Assembly: GCA_026390575.1 (NCBI GenBank)
Contig: JAPLFR010000016.1
Location: 1 to 64,000 of the forward strand
Length of the DNA: 64,000 nucleotides
Direction of reading: 5' to 3'
From: Ignavibacteriales bacterium
GTDB taxonomy: Bacteria; Bacteroidota; Ignavibacteria; UBA10030
A program made the translations under genes and the position numbers. The notes beneath the pieces were generated by a model, which worked only from the letters and a program-made list of their open reading frames with translations, was not told where the DNA came from and did not search any database. This document shows positions 50,786-58,157 of the stretch, one piece after another; position 1 is the first letter of the stretch; each line of letters opens with the position of its first letter.

Positions 50786-52729
50786 ATGTTATCACTTGAA
50801 CATATTACTATTCAATTTGGAGAACGTTCGCTGTTTGAAGATGTGACAGCGACTATTGGTCCGCGAGACCGTATAGGACTGGTCGGTTCAAACGGCAGCG
50901 GTAAATCTACACTTTTGAAAGCAATAGTTGGTATTCAGCAAACCGATGTTGGAACTATCAATAAAGCGCAATATGTAACCGTCGGGTACCTGCCGCAAGA
51001 TGGTGTCACCGCCTTCGGCTGCACTTTGTACCAAGAATCAGAGACTGCTTTTGAAGATGTACTGCAAGTCCAACGCGAACTCGATGACGCACACCAACAA
51101 CTCACAACACTCGATCCTTCCGGCAGCGACTTTGCAGACACGCTGGAAGTATTAGGTGAACTCCAACATAAATTAGAAGACCTCGATGCCTATCGGATGA
51201 AATCCAAAATCGAACGCATTCTTATGGGACTTGGATTTTCCATACATGATTTCGAGCGCATGACGGAGGAGTTCAGCGGCGGCTGGCAGATGCGTATCGC
51301 ACTTGCGAAATTACTTTTAAAAGAACCCAATGTCCTCCTCCTTGATGAACCGACAAATCATCTCGATATTGAAACGCTCCAATGGCTGGAAGAATATCTC
51401 CACCAGTATAACGGCGCCATCATGCTTGTCTCGCACGACCGCACTTTTCTCGACAATCTTACGACGAAAACATTTTCACTCAGCCGCGGCAAATTCGAAA
51501 GCTATGCCGGCAATTACTCTTTCTATGAAACAGAGCGCGAAGTACGCAAAGAACTTTTGGTAAGCCAGCTCAAGAACCAACAGCAGCACATCAAACAAAC
51601 ACAAGAATTTATAGATCGATTCCGGTACAAGGCAACCAAGGCGCGCCAGGTACAAAGCCGGATCAAACAGTTGGAAAAGATTGATATCGTGGAAGTAGAA
51701 AGTGAAGAAGACGAAATCCATTTTCATTTTCCACCGCCACAGCAAAGCGGGCGGGTCGTGATGGAATTAAACAATATCGGCAAACACTACGGCGCCTTAG
51801 AGGTTTTCAATAACCTTGATTACAAAGTTGAACGAGGTGATCGTATCGCAATCGTCGGCGTCAACGGCGCTGGTAAATCAACACTATCGAGAATTCTTGC
51901 CGGCGTAGAATCCTACGACGCAGGCGAGCGCATTATTGGTTACAATGTCGTACCATCGTACTTCGCACAAGATCAAGCGGAGGAACTCGACCTCACCAAG
52001 GACGTACTGCAAACGGTTGAGGAATCTGCAGGAACAGAAACTCGCGCACAGCTTCGTACACTTCTTGGTTCCTTTCTTTTTCACGGCGATGATGTTTTTA
52101 AGAGCGTCTCCGTTCTTTCCGGCGGTGAGAAGAGCAGGCTTGCGTTGGCAAAAATGCTGCTGCAGCCGGCAAACTTTCTGATCATGGACGAGCCGACGAA
52201 TCATCTTGACATGAAATCAAAACGTGTGCTGCAGGAAGCTCTGTCAAAGTATGAAGGCACGTTCGCCATTGTATCGCATGACCGTGCTTTTCTCGATCCC
52301 ATCGTCAACAAGGTTTTAGAAGTGAAACCCGGTTTGCTCAGAACGTTCCTTGGCAATCTCTCCGATTATATCATAAAGAAAAAAGAGGAACGCCAACAAG
52401 CAGTTCAGAATATTGAAAAGTTAGATGCGCCTCCGTCCGACGAAACACAGACGACATGGCAAGAACAACAAAAACGCCGCAAGAGCATTGCTCGCGATGT
52501 TCGTGCTGCGAAGAAGAAGGTTGAAGAAGCTGAGGCATTAATCCATCAGCTGGAAACACGGAAAAAAGAGGTCGAAGTGTTGCTTGCAAATCCCGACTTC
52601 TATAAAAACGGCGCAGAAGCGAAATTGATTTCGGCAGAATATAAAGATGTGCAAATCCAAATCGAAAAGGCATATGCCTATTGGTCTGATTTGATTCATC
52701 AACTTGATCAAGTGGAGAAAGACGTTTGA
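50786..52729 (+). CDS. ABC-F family ribosome-associated ATPase
   Basis: 647 residues, no membrane segment. Two ABC cassettes: Walker A GLVGSNGSGKST and GVNGAGKST, signatures FSGGWQMRIALAK and LSGGEKSRLALAK, Walker B NVLLLDEPTNHLD and LIMDEPTNHLD, joined by a charged linker (P-site tRNA interaction motif region, about 235-290). A C-terminal coiled coil (about 555-645, RARRAAKKKVEEAEALIHQL-like) is Uup/YdiF-like. Such proteins act on the ribosome at the E site in translation quality control or antibiotic protection; this one cannot be assigned to a subfamily by eye. Confidence 0.9.
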   Translation: MLSLEHITIQFGERSLFEDVTATIGPRDRIGLVGSNGSGKSTLLKAIVGIQQTDVGTINKAQYVTVGYLPQDGVTAFGCTLYQESETAFEDVLQVQRELDDAHQQLTTLDPSGSDFADTLEVLGELQHKLEDLDAYRMKSKIERILMGLGFSIHDFERMTEEFSGGWQMRIALAKLLLKEPNVLLLDEPTNHLDIETLQWLEEYLHQYNGAIMLVSHDRTFLDNLTTKTFSLSRGKFESYAGNYSFYETEREVRKELLVSQLKNQQQHIKQTQEFIDRFRYKATKARQVQSRIKQLEKIDIVEVESEEDEIHFHFPPPQQSGRVVMELNNIGKHYGALEVFNNLDYKVERGDRIAIVGVNGAGKSTLSRILAGVESYDAGERIIGYNVVPSYFAQDQAEELDLTKDVLQTVEESAGTETRAQLRTLLGSFLFHGDDVFKSVSVLSGGEKSRLALAKMLLQPANFLIMDEPTNHLDMKSKRVLQEALSKYEGTFAIVSHDRAFLDPIVNKVLEVKPGLLRTFLGNLSDYIIKKKEERQQAVQNIEKLDAPPSDETQTTWQEQQKRRKSIARDVRAAKKKVEEAEALIHQLETRKKEVEVLLANPDFYKNGAEAKLISAEYKDVQIQIEKAYAYWSDLIHQLDQVEKDV

Positions 52730-52838
52730 TACTTCCCTGTGAACGAAATAAGAGAGGTGTCATACATTCGAGTTGAAACTTGACAAGGGAATTGCTAAAC
52801 TGTACTAGGTTTCTTCAATGTATTGTTAGAAGGCGTTT

Positions 52839-54284
52839 ATGCTGACTACGATTTCCTATGTTCTCGATGGCAAAATTGTTACACTCGATTTCAATTCCGC
52901 TTCACAACTCACACCAACAACAACGGTTCTCAATTATCTTCGAAGTCTGCCGAATCATAAAGGCGTAAAAGAAGGTTGTGCCGAAGGCGACTGCGGTGCT
53001 TGCACAGTTGTCATTGGAGAATTTGCTGCCGGCAGTAAAATCCATTATCGAAGCGTTGATTCATGCCTCATATTCCTGCCGATGCTGCACGGCAAACAAA
53101 TTGTAACAATCGAGAACCTGCAAAATAAAAAAGGACAATTGCACAACGTTCAATCTGCAATGGTGGAAACCGGCGGAAGCCAGTGTGGATTTTGCACGCC
53201 GGGAATTGTCATGTCGTTGTTCTCGCTCTACAAGAATCACACCATGCCAACACGAGAACAAATTGATGATGCGATCACCAGTAATTTGTGCAGATGTACC
53301 GGTTACAAACCGATCGTGGAGGCTGCTGCGCAAGCCTGCGTTCATGATGGAATCGATCATTTCACAGACGATGAACCGACAACCATTGAACTTCTCAAGT
53401 CCATTCCACACGAATCTATTTCTATAAGAACAAAGGATCAGGAATACTTCCGTCCGAACAATCTAAAAGAAGCTCTTTCACTGAAAAGTAAACATCCTGA
53501 TGCTATTATCATCTCTGGTTCAACGGATGTTGCATTACGTGTAACAAAAGGACATGAGGTCTTACCACAACTCATTGATCTCTCTGGCGTTGAAGAGTTG
53601 CAATCTATGCTGGAAACCGACGATACACTCACACTTGGCGCAGGAATGATTCTTAGCGATGTGCATCAAGCTGTAAAGAACAATTATCCTGCACTGTACG
53701 CAATTTTGTCAATCTTCGGCTCACAGCAAATCAGGAACCTCGCTACGCTTGGCGGCAATCTCGGAACAGCATCTCCTATCAGCGACACGCTGCCCGTGCT
53801 GATGGCATATATTGCAACTATCATTCTCCAAAGCACCAATGCAAAACGCGAAATCACCCTGGATGATTTCATACTTGGTTATCGGAAGACCGCTCGCAAA
53901 CCAGATGAACTGATTACAGCAGTACGCCTGCTTAAATCGCAAAATGGCACCATCATCAAATCGTATAAAATCTCCAAACGTAAAGATCTCGACATTTCTA
54001 CGGTAAGTGCAGGATGTAGATTGGAATTGAATAGTAACAAATCGGTAAAAGCAATCAAACTTATCTATGGTGGTATGGCAGATTGTGTAAAACACGCGAC
54101 TCAAACAGAACAATTCCTTGCTGGGAAATTATGGAAACGTGAAATAGTGGAAGAAGCAATGCAGTTCATTAATAACGACTTCACACCAATTTCCGATGCA
54201 CGCGGCTCTGCAGAATTTAGAACAATCGCTGCAAAAAACCTGCTCCTTAAATTCTGGGCAGATACAGTGAACAATGAGCAATGA
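52839..54284 (+). CDS. xdhA: xanthine dehydrogenase small subunit (FeS and FAD)
   Basis: 481 residues. The N-terminal plant-type [2Fe-2S] cluster is bound by C47, C52, C55 and C76; the second cluster by C116, C119, C151 and C153 (SQCGFCTPG; LCRCTGYK). The FAD domain follows with AIIISGSTDVAL and LATLGGNLGTASPISD. It pairs with the molybdenum subunit XdhB to oxidise hypoxanthine and xanthine to urate. The last codons (NNEQ then TGA at 54282-54284) fall inside the repeat that begins the four-helix-bundle cassette, so the native end may have been altered. Confidence 0.93.
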   Translation: MLTTISYVLDGKIVTLDFNSASQLTPTTTVLNYLRSLPNHKGVKEGCAEGDCGACTVVIGEFAAGSKIHYRSVDSCLIFLPMLHGKQIVTIENLQNKKGQLHNVQSAMVETGGSQCGFCTPGIVMSLFSLYKNHTMPTREQIDDAITSNLCRCTGYKPIVEAAAQACVHDGIDHFTDDEPTTIELLKSIPHESISIRTKDQEYFRPNNLKEALSLKSKHPDAIIISGSTDVALRVTKGHEVLPQLIDLSGVEELQSMLETDDTLTLGAGMILSDVHQAVKNNYPALYAILSIFGSQQIRNLATLGGNLGTASPISDTLPVLMAYIATIILQSTNAKREITLDDFILGYRKTARKPDELITAVRLLKSQNGTIIKSYKISKRKDLDISTVSAGCRLELNSNKSVKAIKLIYGGMADCVKHATQTEQFLAGKLWKREIVEEAMQFINNDFTPISDARGSAEFRTIAAKNLLLKFWADTVNNEQ

Positions 54285-54300
54285 GCAGTGACGAGTGACG
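54271..54300 (+). repeat. left inverted repeat of the four-helix-bundle cassette
   Basis: Contains AATGAGCAGTGA at 54280-54291 in a run of ATGAGCA and GTGACGA units. An exact inverted copy, TCACTGCTCATT, is at 54659-54670. Confidence 0.6.
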
Positions 54301-54301
54301 A

Positions 54302-54658
54302 ATGGCAAAAGAAAGTATTGTTCGAGAGAAAGCGTTTAAGTTTGCAGTCAGAATTGTAAAGTTATACCAATTTCTATCAATCGAAAAAAAGGAATTTGTT
54401 CTCTCGAAACAGATATTACGTAGTGGTACTTCTATTGGTGCAAATATTGAAGAAGCAGATGGTGCAATTTCAAAAAAGGAATTTTCAAATAAGATTTCCG
54501 TTGCCTACAAGGAAGCAAGAGTAACTTCCTATTGGTTGCGTTTACTGCAAGCCACTGATTTCATTGAAAAACATCTATTCGAATCTTTAGCGGCCGATTG
54601 TGACGAATTGTGCAAACTTCTCTTTGCAATCATAAGAACCGCGAGGATCAAAAATTGA
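54302..54658 (+). CDS. four-helix-bundle protein (23S rRNA intervening-sequence type)
   Basis: 118 residues. It matches the small family first found encoded in intervening sequences of 23S rRNA: FAVRIVKLYQFL, QILRSGTSIGANIEEADGAISKKEFSNKISVAYKEARVTSYWLRLL. The protein is a helix bundle of unknown role, possibly RNA-binding. It splits the xdhA-xdhB pair and is flanked by inverted repeats (54280-54291 and 54659-54670), so it looks like a small mobile cassette that landed in the operon without breaking downstream translation. It is in the same direction as xdhAB. Confidence 0.9.
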   Translation: MAKESIVREKAFKFAVRIVKLYQFLSIEKKEFVLSKQILRSGTSIGANIEEADGAISKKEFSNKISVAYKEARVTSYWLRLLQATDFIEKHLFESLAADCDELCKLLFAIIRTARIKN

Positions 54659-54688
54659 TCACTGCTCATTCATCACTGATCACTATGA
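54656..54688 (+). repeat. right inverted repeat of the four-helix-bundle cassette
   Basis: Contains TCACTGCTCATT (54659-54670) followed by CATCACTGATCACTA units, ending at the xdhB start codon. Confidence 0.6.
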
Positions 54689-56985
54689 ACATTCCGCACG
54701 AATCAGCTTCAAAGCATGTAACCGGCGAAGCGATCTATATTGATGACATTCTTGTAAGCGATCAGTTGTTAGTCGGTCGGGTAGTTTATAGTCCTCATGC
54801 ACATGCCAAGATTAAATCGTTTGATGTAAGCGAAGCAAAGAAGTCAGAGGGCGTTCATGCGGTGCTCTGTTACAAGGATATTCCCGGACACAACCAGATG
54901 GGACCGGTTGTGAGTGACGAGCTCTGCCTCGCCATTGACGAAGTGACATTCGTAGGACAAGCAATATTCCTTATTGCCGCCGAGACCGAAGCGCAGGCCC
55001 AAATTGCTGAGAAATTAATAAAAGTTGATTATGAGGTGCTTGAACCGATTCTCACAATCGAGCAAGCAATCGAGAAAAACAATCTGCTCGGCCCGCCGCG
55101 CACTATGCAGCGTGGCGATGCAGATAGTGCGCTCGTTTCGGCACCGCATGTATTAAAAGGAAAAATCAAAACTGGCGCACAGGAACATTGGTACCTTGAA
55201 TCGCAAATCAGTCTCTGTATTCCCGGTGAACATAACGAGATGAACGTCTTCAGCGGGACACAGAATCCAACCGAAACACAAATTCTTGTCGCAGAAGTGC
55301 TTGGCATCTCATTGAATGAAGTTGTTGTAGAAATCCGACGTATGGGCGGTGCTTTCGGCGGAAAAGAAACGCAGGCAAATCACGTTGCTTGTTGGACTGC
55401 GCTCCTTGCGCGGGCAACGAAACGCCCGGTAAAGATTCGTCTTTTCCGTGATGATGATATGATTATGACCGGCAAGCGCCATCGTTTTCTGACGCGCTAC
55501 GAAGTTGGATTTGATGATAACGGAAAACTGCTCGCACTGAAATTGGAACTAAACAGCGATGGCGGCGCAGCAACCGACTTATCGTTCGCAATTATGGAAC
55601 GAGCTATGCTCCACGCTGACAATGCATACTTCATTCCCAACATGACGGTTCTTGCACGTGTATGGAAAACAAATCTGCCTTCCAACACCGCATTCCGGGG
55701 ATTTGGCGGACCACAGGGAATGGCAGCGATAGAAACTATCATCGATCGTGCTGCGCGGTATCTGAAAAAAGATGCGCTTGAGATTCGCTTTGCAAATTTC
55801 TATGGCATCGAAACAAACAACATCACGCATTATGGTCAGCAGATCGAGAACAACAGGCTCTTTGTCATTTACGATCAATTAATGAAATCGTCAGAATATT
55901 ATGAGCGACGAAGCAAAGTGAATAATTTCAACGCTGCGCATGAATTCATCAAAAAAGGTCTTGCCTGCACACCGGTAAAATTTGGTATCTCGTTCACCAC
56001 AACATTTCTTAATCAAGCCGGAGCGATTGTTAATGTATATACCGACGGTACGATCCTCGTCAACCATGGCGGCACAGAAATGGGTCAAGGATTGCACACA
56101 AAGATTCAGCAAATTGCAGCGGCAGAATTTGGCGTCAGCTTGGAACGCGTGAAGGTGAGCGCCACGAACACATCTAAAGTCCCAAACACATCCGCTACAG
56201 CGGCATCTTCCGGCACGGATCTCAACGGTGCCGCAGTGAAGAATGCCATCGACATACTCAAGGCTCGCATCGCCGAGGAAATAGCAAAAGTGTTTTCAGA
56301 AAAGAACCCCGGCAATCCAACAGTACCGAATTCCATTATGTTCCAGGATGACGTTATCTTTGATTCCATTCATCCTGATCGGCGAATGAAGTTTGAAGAA
56401 GTCATGAACTTAATGCGCTTGCATCAAATAAGCCTTAGTTCCACCGGATATTACCGCACACCTGAAATCGGCTGGGATAAACAGAAAGGTTGGGGCACAC
56501 CATTCTATTATTTTTCATTCGGAATGTGCGTTTCGGAAATAGAATTAGATATTCTCACTGGGCGGCATACATTTGTACGCGTCGACATTTTACACGATGC
56601 CGGGAAATCACTTAATCCGCTCATCGACCGCGGGCAGATTGAAGGCGGTTTCATCCAGGGCGTTGGCTGGTGTACAACCGAAGAAATTAAATGGGATGAC
56701 AAAGGCAGACTCATGACGCACTCGCCAGATACATACAAAATTCCAACGGTGCAGGACATCCCAAAGGATTTTCGTGTAGAACTCTTGCAGGGCTATCCTA
56801 ATCCTGTCGCGATTCGACAAAGCAAGACGGTAGCTGAACCGCCATTGATGTACGGACTTTCAACGTGGCTCGCTATCAAAGATGCTGTTTCGGCAACTAG
56901 AAATCATGAAATCGAACCTGAGTTTTCTCTTCCAGCAACGAATGAAGTAATCCTTCTGTCGATTGAGAAGCTCAAAAGAAAATAA
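54685..56985 (+). CDS. xdhB: xanthine dehydrogenase molybdenum subunit
   Basis: About 766 residues from the ATG at 54685; the longer frame to 54610 is translated repeat plus four-helix-bundle sequence. It holds the molybdopterin cofactor and substrate site. Motifs seen are ASKHVTGEAIYIDDI at the start, RMGGAFGGKETQ, the substrate arginine loop NTAFRGFGGPQGM, MGQGLHTK, ASSGTDLNGAAV and the active-site glutamate in VAEPPLMYGLSTW (usually GEPP; here A precedes E). The set matches purine-type xanthine dehydrogenases rather than CO dehydrogenases, which carry a cysteine-bound copper. Confidence 0.92.
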   Translation: MNIPHESASKHVTGEAIYIDDILVSDQLLVGRVVYSPHAHAKIKSFDVSEAKKSEGVHAVLCYKDIPGHNQMGPVVSDELCLAIDEVTFVGQAIFLIAAETEAQAQIAEKLIKVDYEVLEPILTIEQAIEKNNLLGPPRTMQRGDADSALVSAPHVLKGKIKTGAQEHWYLESQISLCIPGEHNEMNVFSGTQNPTETQILVAEVLGISLNEVVVEIRRMGGAFGGKETQANHVACWTALLARATKRPVKIRLFRDDDMIMTGKRHRFLTRYEVGFDDNGKLLALKLELNSDGGAATDLSFAIMERAMLHADNAYFIPNMTVLARVWKTNLPSNTAFRGFGGPQGMAAIETIIDRAARYLKKDALEIRFANFYGIETNNITHYGQQIENNRLFVIYDQLMKSSEYYERRSKVNNFNAAHEFIKKGLACTPVKFGISFTTTFLNQAGAIVNVYTDGTILVNHGGTEMGQGLHTKIQQIAAAEFGVSLERVKVSATNTSKVPNTSATAASSGTDLNGAAVKNAIDILKARIAEEIAKVFSEKNPGNPTVPNSIMFQDDVIFDSIHPDRRMKFEEVMNLMRLHQISLSSTGYYRTPEIGWDKQKGWGTPFYYFSFGMCVSEIELDILTGRHTFVRVDILHDAGKSLNPLIDRGQIEGGFIQGVGWCTTEEIKWDDKGRLMTHSPDTYKIPTVQDIPKDFRVELLQGYPNPVAIRQSKTVAEPPLMYGLSTWLAIKDAVSATRNHEIEPEFSLPATNEVILLSIEKLKRK

Positions 56986-57020
56986 TCATTACCGGATAAA
57001 TGAAAGCGTATTGATAATAC

Positions 57021-58157
57021 ATGGATATTTACAAGGAACTCCTCGATTCACTTGAAACAGAAGAACAAATTATTCTGGCGACTATTGTCTCCACAAAGGG
57101 CTCGACACCATCGGCAGCGCTTTCAAAAATGATTATCAAGAATCAAGGCAAGACATCTATTGGAACTATTGGCGGCGGATGTGTTGAGGCAGATGTTTTG
57201 GGGCGGGCACAACAGAAACTTCAAACGGGGACTGTAGAGACACTGTGCTTTGAATTGCGCGAAGACGAGTATATTCAAGGATTAATCTGCGGCGGCACAA
57301 TCAATGTTTTGCTGGAGCCAATCGGTAGAGATCTCATTCCATTTTTCCGCGATCTCAAATCTATCCGTGATAATGGAAATGATTCTGTTATTGGCACGTT
57401 TCTTAACTCTGATGGTTGTGTTAAGTGTAAAACAATTCTTGCTGAAATGCGAAGCACTGAACTTTGCTTAAACAAAGAGCAAGAATCATACTGGCAAATG
57501 CTTCTGCAAAAAGCTGCGTCGCCGTTGCAAAATACATTCGTCGAAATTATTGCATCTTCTTTGAAGCATCAGGGTGTCACTCGCATTCCATTGAATGAAG
57601 GCGAACTCATTTTTGAACCTGTCCCCGGTTTGCCAAATCTTATTCTTTTCGGAGGCGGTCATGTCTCCAAGGCAATTTGCAAATCAGCGGCTTCCTGCGG
57701 ATTTCAAGTAACTGTCACCGATGATCGAGAAGCGTTTTGCAATCCTGCCCGATTTCCAGAAGCATCCAAAACCGTTGTTTCCGATTTTTCTGAAGTTTTT
57801 AACCGTATTACCATCAAACCGACAACGTATCTTGTCATTGTAACACGCGGACATCAATATGATGAAGAAGTTCTAGAAAAAGCGCTGAAAACCCCGGCAC
57901 ACTATATCGGAATGATGGGAAGTCAACGGAAAGTCTTGACGTCATATAAACGGCTTCTACAATACGGTTTTAACAGCGAAGATCTCAAGCGCGTTCAATC
58001 TCCAATTGGAATTGAGGTTGGTGCGGTTACTCCAGAAGAAATTGCAATAAGTGTCGTTGCACAACTTATTCGCGTTCGTCGTGGTTATTCAAAATCAGCC
58101 ATTGATAAATCTGAAGCGATGTATTCCTTTTTTCATAAAAACGACGTACCATCTTAA
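57021..58157 (+). CDS. xdhC: XdhC-type molybdenum cofactor insertion/maturation factor
   Basis: 378 residues. It binds molybdopterin and helps sulfurate and insert it into XdhB. The N-terminal XdhC/CoxI domain reads ATIVSTKGSTPSAALSKMII, IGGGCVEADVLGRA and GLICGGTINVLLEP; the C-terminal Rossmann domain has LILFGGGHVSKAICKSA and THYIGMMGSQRK-like (AHYIGMMGSQRK). It follows xdhB by 35 bases, completing the xdhABC operon. Confidence 0.93.
   Translation: MDIYKELLDSLETEEQIILATIVSTKGSTPSAALSKMIIKNQGKTSIGTIGGGCVEADVLGRAQQKLQTGTVETLCFELREDEYIQGLICGGTINVLLEPIGRDLIPFFRDLKSIRDNGNDSVIGTFLNSDGCVKCKTILAEMRSTELCLNKEQESYWQMLLQKAASPLQNTFVEIIASSLKHQGVTRIPLNEGELIFEPVPGLPNLILFGGGHVSKAICKSAASCGFQVTVTDDREAFCNPARFPEASKTVVSDFSEVFNRITIKPTTYLVIVTRGHQYDEEVLEKALKTPAHYIGMMGSQRKVLTSYKRLLQYGFNSEDLKRVQSPIGIEVGAVTPEEIAISVVAQLIRVRRGYSKSAIDKSEAMYSFFHKNDVPS

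Follow-up and report, generated by a model that had tools for sequence, protein, structure and literature searches.

Introduction

Genes of the family PF05635 carry the annotation 'four helix bundle protein' and no assigned function. Among the closest described systems are the S23p intervening sequences (IVS) of 23S rRNA genes in Coxiella and Leptospira, which encode a protein of the same family, have complementary ends and are similar in size to the element reported here. According to the part of PMC4990558 cited here, the Coxiella IVS is 428 nt long and has tandem heptamers before its open reading frame (ORF), and mobility of IVS was suspected by Ralph and McClelland 1993, as cited there. 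Here we describe a four-helix-bundle (4HB) gene of this family that lies between the xanthine dehydrogenase genes xdhA and xdhB, in an operon for purine breakdown, of an Ignavibacteriales bacterium (assembly GCA_026390575.1; the source genome, G000 in locus names), within the first 64,000 nucleotides of contig JAPLFR010000016.1 (the window). The gene is bracketed by arrays of 7-bp units, and taken as a whole the evidence makes it probable that it forms a short mobile element built of a 7-bp array, the 4HB gene and the same array inverted.

A preliminary description of this DNA, made from the sequence alone, had linked the gene to 23S rRNA IVS, and the link proved meaningful. Both have the same gene family and complementary ends. 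There are also differences. Heptamers of the Coxiella IVS are described on the 5' side only, and its protein was thought not to be made (PMC4990558, cited in part), whereas here arrays stand on both sides, their units vary by locus and the gene is conserved. Moreover, the element sits between or inside other genes rather than in 23S; blastn of the source genome's 23S gene against 146 4HB loci gave no match, and an rRNA location was rejected for these loci. Those rRNA IVS that bear the ORF may belong to one kind of element with the cassette described here.

STRR are heptamer repeats of cyanobacteria. Cyanobacterial LTRR repeats are named in PMC2408588 (cited in part), and the TAACTGA-type repeats of Beggiatoaceae, Cyanobacteria and Bacteroidetes are likewise seven-base tandem intergenic units (MacGregor 2015, PMC4679880, cited in part). 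The arrays at the xdh site share with STRR and TAACTGA-type repeats the intergenic tandem arrangement with a period of seven. However, TAACTGA-type repeats are mainly direct, with a possible regulatory role, while the arrays here are inverted, and in the text of PMC4679880 the terms 'four helix', 'S23' and 'intervening' occur 0 times. TAACTGA-type units lie near one 4HB element (L004). Degenerate 7-nt motifs (TDNGATT or NNTGAGT) also make up the P6b stem of the Nostoc trnL group I intron, where motif classes were replaced repeatedly and indels occur on both sides of the stem; this stem lies in a group I intron, and the cited part of PMC4476775 does not mention a 4HB gene. In an open-licence collection of papers, preprints excluded, we found no description of an intergenic 4HB element, nor work joining it to heptamers or IVS.

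Results

The exact 12-base inverted repeat that the preliminary description reported is real (Table 1), and the ungapped inverted match around it covers 26 nt at 85% identity (54266-54291 / 54659-54684). By itself an exact 12-mer is weak, as the whole window has two exact inverted 12-mer pairs spaced 60-600 nt; this 12-mer occurs once more in the source genome, without a 4HB gene. The match is the best-conserved part of two degenerate 7-bp arrays in opposite orientation. The left array reads AGTGAAC AATGAGC AATGAGC AGTGACG AGTGACG, and the right array consists of inverted members of the same unit family. As described earlier, the xdhA stop codon (TGA, 54282-54284) falls within the left array, and the right array ends one base before the xdhB start codon (ATG, 54685-54687). 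In 464 kb of the source genome (the window and 400 kb more), six period-7/8 arrays have an inverted partner (score at least 15, at most 650 nt away): the two xdh-site arms, the two arms of another 4HB gene (C16:412103) and two gene-less arrays. At periods 5, 6, 9, 10, 11 and 13 the same 464 kb contains 0 arrays with an inverted partner, and the reversed-partner control also gave 0. The xdh-site arrays are not due to chance. Between the arms of the cassette, whose extent we set at 54266-54684, no transposase is encoded. The 118-aa 4HB protein matches PF05635, the one Pfam family that it hits at E 0.001, at 92.7 bits (cut-off 33.8), and TIGR02436 at 102.7 bits (cut-off 24), and one solved relative found by sequence is 2rld. 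No Rfam family reaches its gathering score in 52000-58000.

Similar arrays recur at most other copies of the gene. PF05635 is matched 14 times in the source genome, in 13 genes of which one seems to be broken in two by a frameshift, and most have inverted arrays whose unit is specific to each (GGTAGAA, GAGTCTTT, GTGATTGA, AGAAGCC and others). The preliminary description had proposed looking for other copies with the same repeats; the architecture is indeed repeated, but the repeat sequence is not, as the units differ per locus. The arm score, a local alignment of the left flank against the reverse complement of the right flank, averages 18.5 over 12 source-genome loci vs 9.05 for 350 control ORFs in the 464 kb (the xdh-site 4HB gene left in) and 9.4 for mispaired arms, and 11/12 loci lie above the 95% quantile of the control. 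This also applies to 18/20 loci from five other genomes in the genus, and to 22/23 loci of named records from Flavobacterium, Spirosoma, Chitinophagaceae, Omnitrophota, Saganbacteria, WOR-3, Chloroflexi and others. Across the wider phylum, 69 loci give a mean arm score of 17.8 vs 9.7, and 50 of them pass the mispaired-arm 95% limit; phylum loci are the best-scoring among the matches listed (29 given, 40 + 20 fetched), weak family members being under-sampled. When assembly loci of several phyla are pooled, the arm score is at least 13 in 106/124, and the best period (5-12 tried) is 7 in 82 of these, 8 in 21 and 9-11 in 3. Every plasmid locus scored (14/14, from 25 plasmid records with a match) reaches 18-43, with hosts in Cyanobacteriota, Bacteroidota, Spirochaetota and Bacillota; some of these arrays are perfect, and the lowest-scoring locus (L251) has arrays of mixed orientation. 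Excluded from these counts were the split gene L016/L017, the contig-end loci L028, L039 and L090, and L091, as well as L031 after the pooled count; L090 and L091 show arrays by eye. The split gene (G000:C16:501330-501625) is apparently a frameshifted 4HB copy in a decaying element.

The family is common among the bacteria sampled. PF05635 was matched in 157/198 phylum genomes at least 90% complete, above the family cut-off in 153, with at most 16 matches per genome. Phage carriage is rare (2/50,697 phage records with a match), and viral_contigs gave no match in a search sensitive to close relatives only.

Plasmids allow the ends of the element to be placed. Nostoc sp. C052 and Dolichospermum flos-aquae carry one element beside different neighbours (L240, L250), and the similarity spans exactly the stretch from the outer edge of [TAATTCG]4 to the outer edge of its inverted copy, with 4 units per side. 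This pair is the clearest boundary evidence that the arrays are the ends of the element. In three Nostoc plasmids a DNA cytosine methyltransferase gene is interrupted by the element; in two others the gene is whole and 332 host bases separate the junction motifs. At a second plasmid site, 198 host bases occupy the position of the element in four plasmids. These alignments indicate that the two plasmid elements replaced host DNA, part of a gene in one case and part of a spacer in the other. Target-site duplication (TSD), as expected of an insertion sequence, is not supported: TSD-like similarity gave no signal (62/125 loci, p 0.91), and the two plasmid insertions replace 198 and 332 host bases.

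Whole cassettes are also exchanged. The gatB-tpiA junction holds the element in 5/6 genomes of the genus, and between two of them (G002 and G003) both neighbour proteins are 96% identical and the DNA windows beside the element 82-98%. However, their 4HB proteins are only 56% identical, the unit differs in both arms, and the difference is bounded by the arrays. The G002 cassette resembles that of the source genome (4HB 94%), the synonymous divergence (dS) of 4HB between L009 and L032 being 0.60 vs 1.67 and saturation in the neighbours, and the G003 cassette resembles that of G001 (4HB 90%; dS not below both neighbours). In two more pairs, L111-L121 and L020-L023, 4HB dS is 2.4 and 1.6 vs 0.25-0.35 in the neighbours. 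Judged by these divergences, whole cassettes are exchanged between species as one block at conserved sites.

Occupied, decayed and empty versions of several sites were found in related genomes. By tblastn, within the stretch examined, the 4HB gene is present at 1/13 xdhB loci of the taxonomic family, that of the source genome, so that most relatives compared at this junction lack the cassette, as the preliminary description had supposed. In G001, whose XdhB is 88% identical, xdhA and xdhB overlap (TGA/ATG) and the junction is insert-free; G011, G012 and G016 have short clean junctions by eye. In G004 a relic of the source genome's right array remains (score 15, 0/300 shuffles as good) and the left array is absent. 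Other genera have gene-less heptamer arrays with a different unit at this junction, with inverted scores of 12-17 in 6/7 loci (L046 13, L048 14, L050 12 and L052 17 in genus g15; L051 13 in g17; L049 17 in g16; L047 none) against shuffled maxima of 10-12. Outside the family sample, a metagenome-assembled genome (MAG, L077) has a 4HB gene at the xdhA-xdhB junction with the unit AATGAAT.

The remaining sites give a similar picture. At hypD the 4HB gene is again confined to the source genome (1/23 loci; 22/23 inspected, two of which gave nothing, and hypC directly upstream in some only), and hypC lies directly upstream of hypD without a 4HB gene in G001, G004 and G005. A third site is occupied in G005 and clean in G003 and G004. 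At a fourth, occupied in the source genome, G003 retains a 4HB fragment and the right array, G002 the right array (0/300 shuffles) and G004 a weaker trace (2/300), with nothing significant in G001 and G005. The mutL site is occupied in the source genome, holds a 4HB fragment in G004 (0/300) and is clean in G002, G003 and G005. Relics of the L013 element in L202 and L206 were rejected, 46/300 and 50/300 shuffles being equally good, as was an inverted array seen by eye at L208 (score 10). Site comparison shows that the element is gained, decayed and absent at defined sites, and that the arrays are its ends. The suggestion of a small mobile unit with repeat ends, made in the preliminary description, is thus supported by the site comparisons and by the ends of most other copies, and that the cassette is mobile and ends in its arrays is very probable. 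A gene-less inverted array of the xdh-site unit family (L001, G000:C10:48762; score 14), possibly a non-autonomous copy or relic, lies just after a tRNA-like gene.

The units of the arrays follow the protein. Of 141 loci, 2 were removed for unread bases and then 14 for an arm score under 13. With reversed sequence as composition control, unit similarity climbs along with 4HB identity, from -0.2 at less than 35% to 3.5 at more than 65% (5522 pairs with no common neighbour; Spearman 0.25; Mantel p 0.003, the lowest value that 300 permutations allow). In a 4HB tree that served only to order the loci, support values not being considered, the neighbours of the xdh-site protein mostly have AATGRAY-like units, and their hosts are Bacteroidetes, Anaerolineae, a Bacillota MAG and two MAGs labelled 'bacterium'. 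We read this agreement as pointing to recognition of the array by the protein, although common descent alone would give it too. The ratio of nonsynonymous to synonymous divergence (dN/dS) of 4HB is 0.03-0.14 in 14/19 pairs (estimable, non-zero; rough, with several dS >1), and by this measure the protein is under purifying selection.

The two arms of a locus are alike beyond their units. Among loci preselected at an arm score of at least 13, with 12/125 left out for weak arrays, the score exceeds the mean of unit-shuffled arms in 96/113. Three alleles that share one Nostoc insertion have 4/4, 4/4 and 3/3 units on the left and right, counts are equal in four Nostoc loci, and at L254 one identical non-heptamer insert is seen by eye in both arms (inverted pair score 43). 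Arms within a locus are closer than arms across species in 52/66 pairs and 10/12 groups; these orthologue tests are confounded by poorly trimmed coding sequence and cassette swaps, and we rely on the site alignments instead.

Elements mostly lie at gene junctions. The left arm starts at most 20 nt from the upstream stop codon in 85/100 testable loci (median -2 nt). The preliminary idea that the unit captures operon boundaries fits this figure but is not shown by it, given the two plasmid elements that replaced parts of a gene or spacer. Because one plasmid element lies inside a gene, the junction bias may reflect survival, or selection against gene damage, rather than targeting.

Discussion

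These observations can be accommodated by an element that moves without a transposase. The two arms would pair with each other, either in single-stranded DNA during replication or in RNA, and one would be copied from the other, which would keep the unit, the unit order and sometimes the unit number equal on both sides. The 4HB protein, which has a relative that is described as pentameric, would recognise its own array, and such recognition would explain why units follow the protein. The mobile form may be a folded single strand from the replication fork, with a 4HB ring holding its own arrays. As the element encodes neither a nuclease nor a polymerase, the host's enzymes for replication and repair would join it to the target, sometimes replacing host DNA, and it would persist by landing between genes in operon direction, or die and leave array relics. 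The parts of this proposal differ in strength. Copying from arm to arm is likely, binding of the arrays by 4HB is evenly balanced, and movement via host replication is a tentative suggestion that we put below even chances.

Several results sit poorly with the proposal. Transposition itself was never observed. Left and right array sizes are not significantly correlated over 125 loci (rho 0.15, p 0.095), so copying between arms does not explain everything. In the same confounded orthologue tests, within-locus arms beat between-species left-left comparisons in only 33/66 pairs (mean 18.5 vs 26.6) and 6/12 groups. Not all loci passed, with 18/124 pooled loci under arm score 13 or skipped for unread bases (L034, L102) and 14/139 under 13 in the unit-similarity set, and L153, L163 and L120 resemble direct arrays by eye. 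Taken together, the 4HB proteins are not basic, with a median isoelectric point (pI) of 6.8, which weakens a nucleic-acid-binding role. Finally, an ancient insertion with precise losses is possible at xdhAB, because the nearest genome (G001) is empty while the farther G004 has a relic and L077 has a 4HB gene there.

The main rival is an RNA route, in which the cassette acts as an IVS at the mRNA level: the arms would pair in the polycistronic transcript, RNase III would cut the stem, removing the 4HB segment and leaving the operon unharmed, and selection on RNA would maintain arm complementarity. In 96/125 loci both flanking genes share the strand of the 4HB gene, a predicted RNA fold pairs the ends (z -2.0), and the Coxiella 23S IVS offers a precedent: it bears an ORF preceded by heptamers, its ends are complementary and RNase III cuts it (PMC4990558, cited in part). 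The fold score is modest, however (DNA fold z -0.8), and arm mismatches have no G.U excess over A.C (137 vs 163, p 0.15), so that RNA pairing is not visibly selected and arm copying at the DNA level fits better. In addition, a stem requires neither a 7-bp period nor units that track the protein. We regard the RNA route as less likely than not; it may coexist with mobility, explaining how inserts within operons are tolerated.

Far less probable is an independent origin, with heptamer arrays arising by intergenic slippage, 4HB genes spreading by ordinary recombination and the two being neighbours by chance. Gene-less inverted arrays do exist (L001, two in the 464 kb, and weak-to-moderate ones at xdhAB of other genera), and heptamer repeats are in print without a 4HB link (PMC4679880, cited in part). 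Yet both 4HB genes in the 464 kb are bracketed and only two other inverted arrays occur there, units track 4HB similarity, the L240/L250 homology stops at the arrays, and some gene-less arrays are decay products, with a 4HB fragment and right array at L204 and a 4HB fragment at L209 (0/300 shuffles each). Still more improbable is that units are made anew from the target at each insertion, or the target chosen by homology. The empty hypCD site does have AGAAGCC and the methyltransferase site CAATTCG, as in the respective units. However, the downstream flank resembles the left arm above the mispaired mean in 56/125 loci (p 0.59), 16 tests (8 junctions of 6 sites, both orientations) gave only two low ranks (0.038, 0.091), L240 and L250 have a common unit at different sites, and the TSD figures given above speak against it as well. 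Hardly credible is that the gene has an accessory part in the xanthine dehydrogenase operon and the arms form a regulatory hairpin, a reading that would suit the co-directional, close spacing and the gene at the same junction in MAG L077 but not its presence at a single family xdhB locus or the same gene family at many unrelated sites.

Returning to the mobile element, its likeness to described mobile DNA is partial. DNA transposons and insertion sequences have terminal inverted repeats, and here too such repeats stand at the ends of homology (L240/L250; the G002/G003 difference), but the 4HB cassette has no transposase. REPINs and their REP (repetitive extragenic palindromic)-associated tyrosine transposases (RAYTs) also have short palindromic ends, small size and intergenic spread (PMC3116915 and PMC2817692, each cited in part); a RAYT is a tyrosine transposase with fixed REPs, while 4HB has no recognised catalytic domain and its ends are arrays. 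By eye, short ORFs with palindromic flanks that resemble REP-associated transposases occur at G000:C16:325192 and 216835. PF05635 further resembles Avd of diversity-generating retroelements (PMC10053308, cited in part), but no reverse transcriptase gene lies beside the xdh-site element; the source genome has two RVT_1 matches, on other contigs, whose matched fragments look retron- or group II-like against NCBIfam (template and variable repeats, TR/VR, not searched). At L130 (G000:C10:31045) a retron St85-like reverse transcriptase fragment scores 230.6 bits vs a cut-off of 235.

A mobile element would give a job to this family and offer a source for intergenic heptamer repeats, and it would reopen the origin of rRNA IVS. 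The boldest form of the proposal, to which we give somewhat less than even chances as a joint claim, is that of a class of its own: transposase-free mobile DNA made of a ring-forming 4HB protein and cognate inverted heptamer arrays, spread through most of the phylum and several others, with ends copied from each other, movement as a folded single strand by means of the host's replication enzymes, and an ability to replace host DNA. Special cases or relics of it would then be the 23S rRNA IVS, the orphan heptamers found in cyanobacteria and sulfur bacteria and, perhaps, the P6b stems of trnL. Termini that differ by protein lineage are natural variants for testing recognition, arm copying and transposase-free movement.

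Features of the locus and additional observations

Table 1. Positions of the 4HB cassette and its neighbours in the window
Feature	Position	Strand	Basis
xdhA, xanthine dehydrogenase small subunit	52839..54284	+	TIGR02963 555.8 bits; ORF; stop codon in left array
Left array, about five degenerate 7-bp units (ARTGARC type)	54266..54301	+	Repeat and period analysis
Exact 12-bp arm AATGAGCAGTGA	54280..54291	+	
4HB protein gene, 118 aa, predicted pI 9.4	54302..54658	+	PF05635 / TIGR02436; solved relative 2rld
Right array, 7-bp unit family of the left array inverted, holds the 4HB stop codon (TGA)	54656..54684	-	
Exact 12-bp arm TCACTGCTCATT, exact complement of the left arm	54659..54670	-	
xdhB, xanthine dehydrogenase molybdopterin-binding subunit	54685..56985	+	TIGR02965 1023.6 bits

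A second 4HB element of the source genome (L007, G000:C11:75056) is found roughly 1 kb away from another XdhB-like gene (C11:71826-73934; 33% identical), just before a gene resembling a 2Fe-2S subunit gene. At L104, L126 and L150 the 4HB gene is, by eye, seemingly in frame within a larger ORF, with its flanks translated; L126 and L150 have common neighbours. Among plasmids, 4HB elements lie between cas2 and cas1 on two from cyanobacteria (L237, L251) and between hsdS and hsdR on one from Monoglobus (L241), and at L250 a second array of TTGGAAT units is nested between the left arm and the gene.

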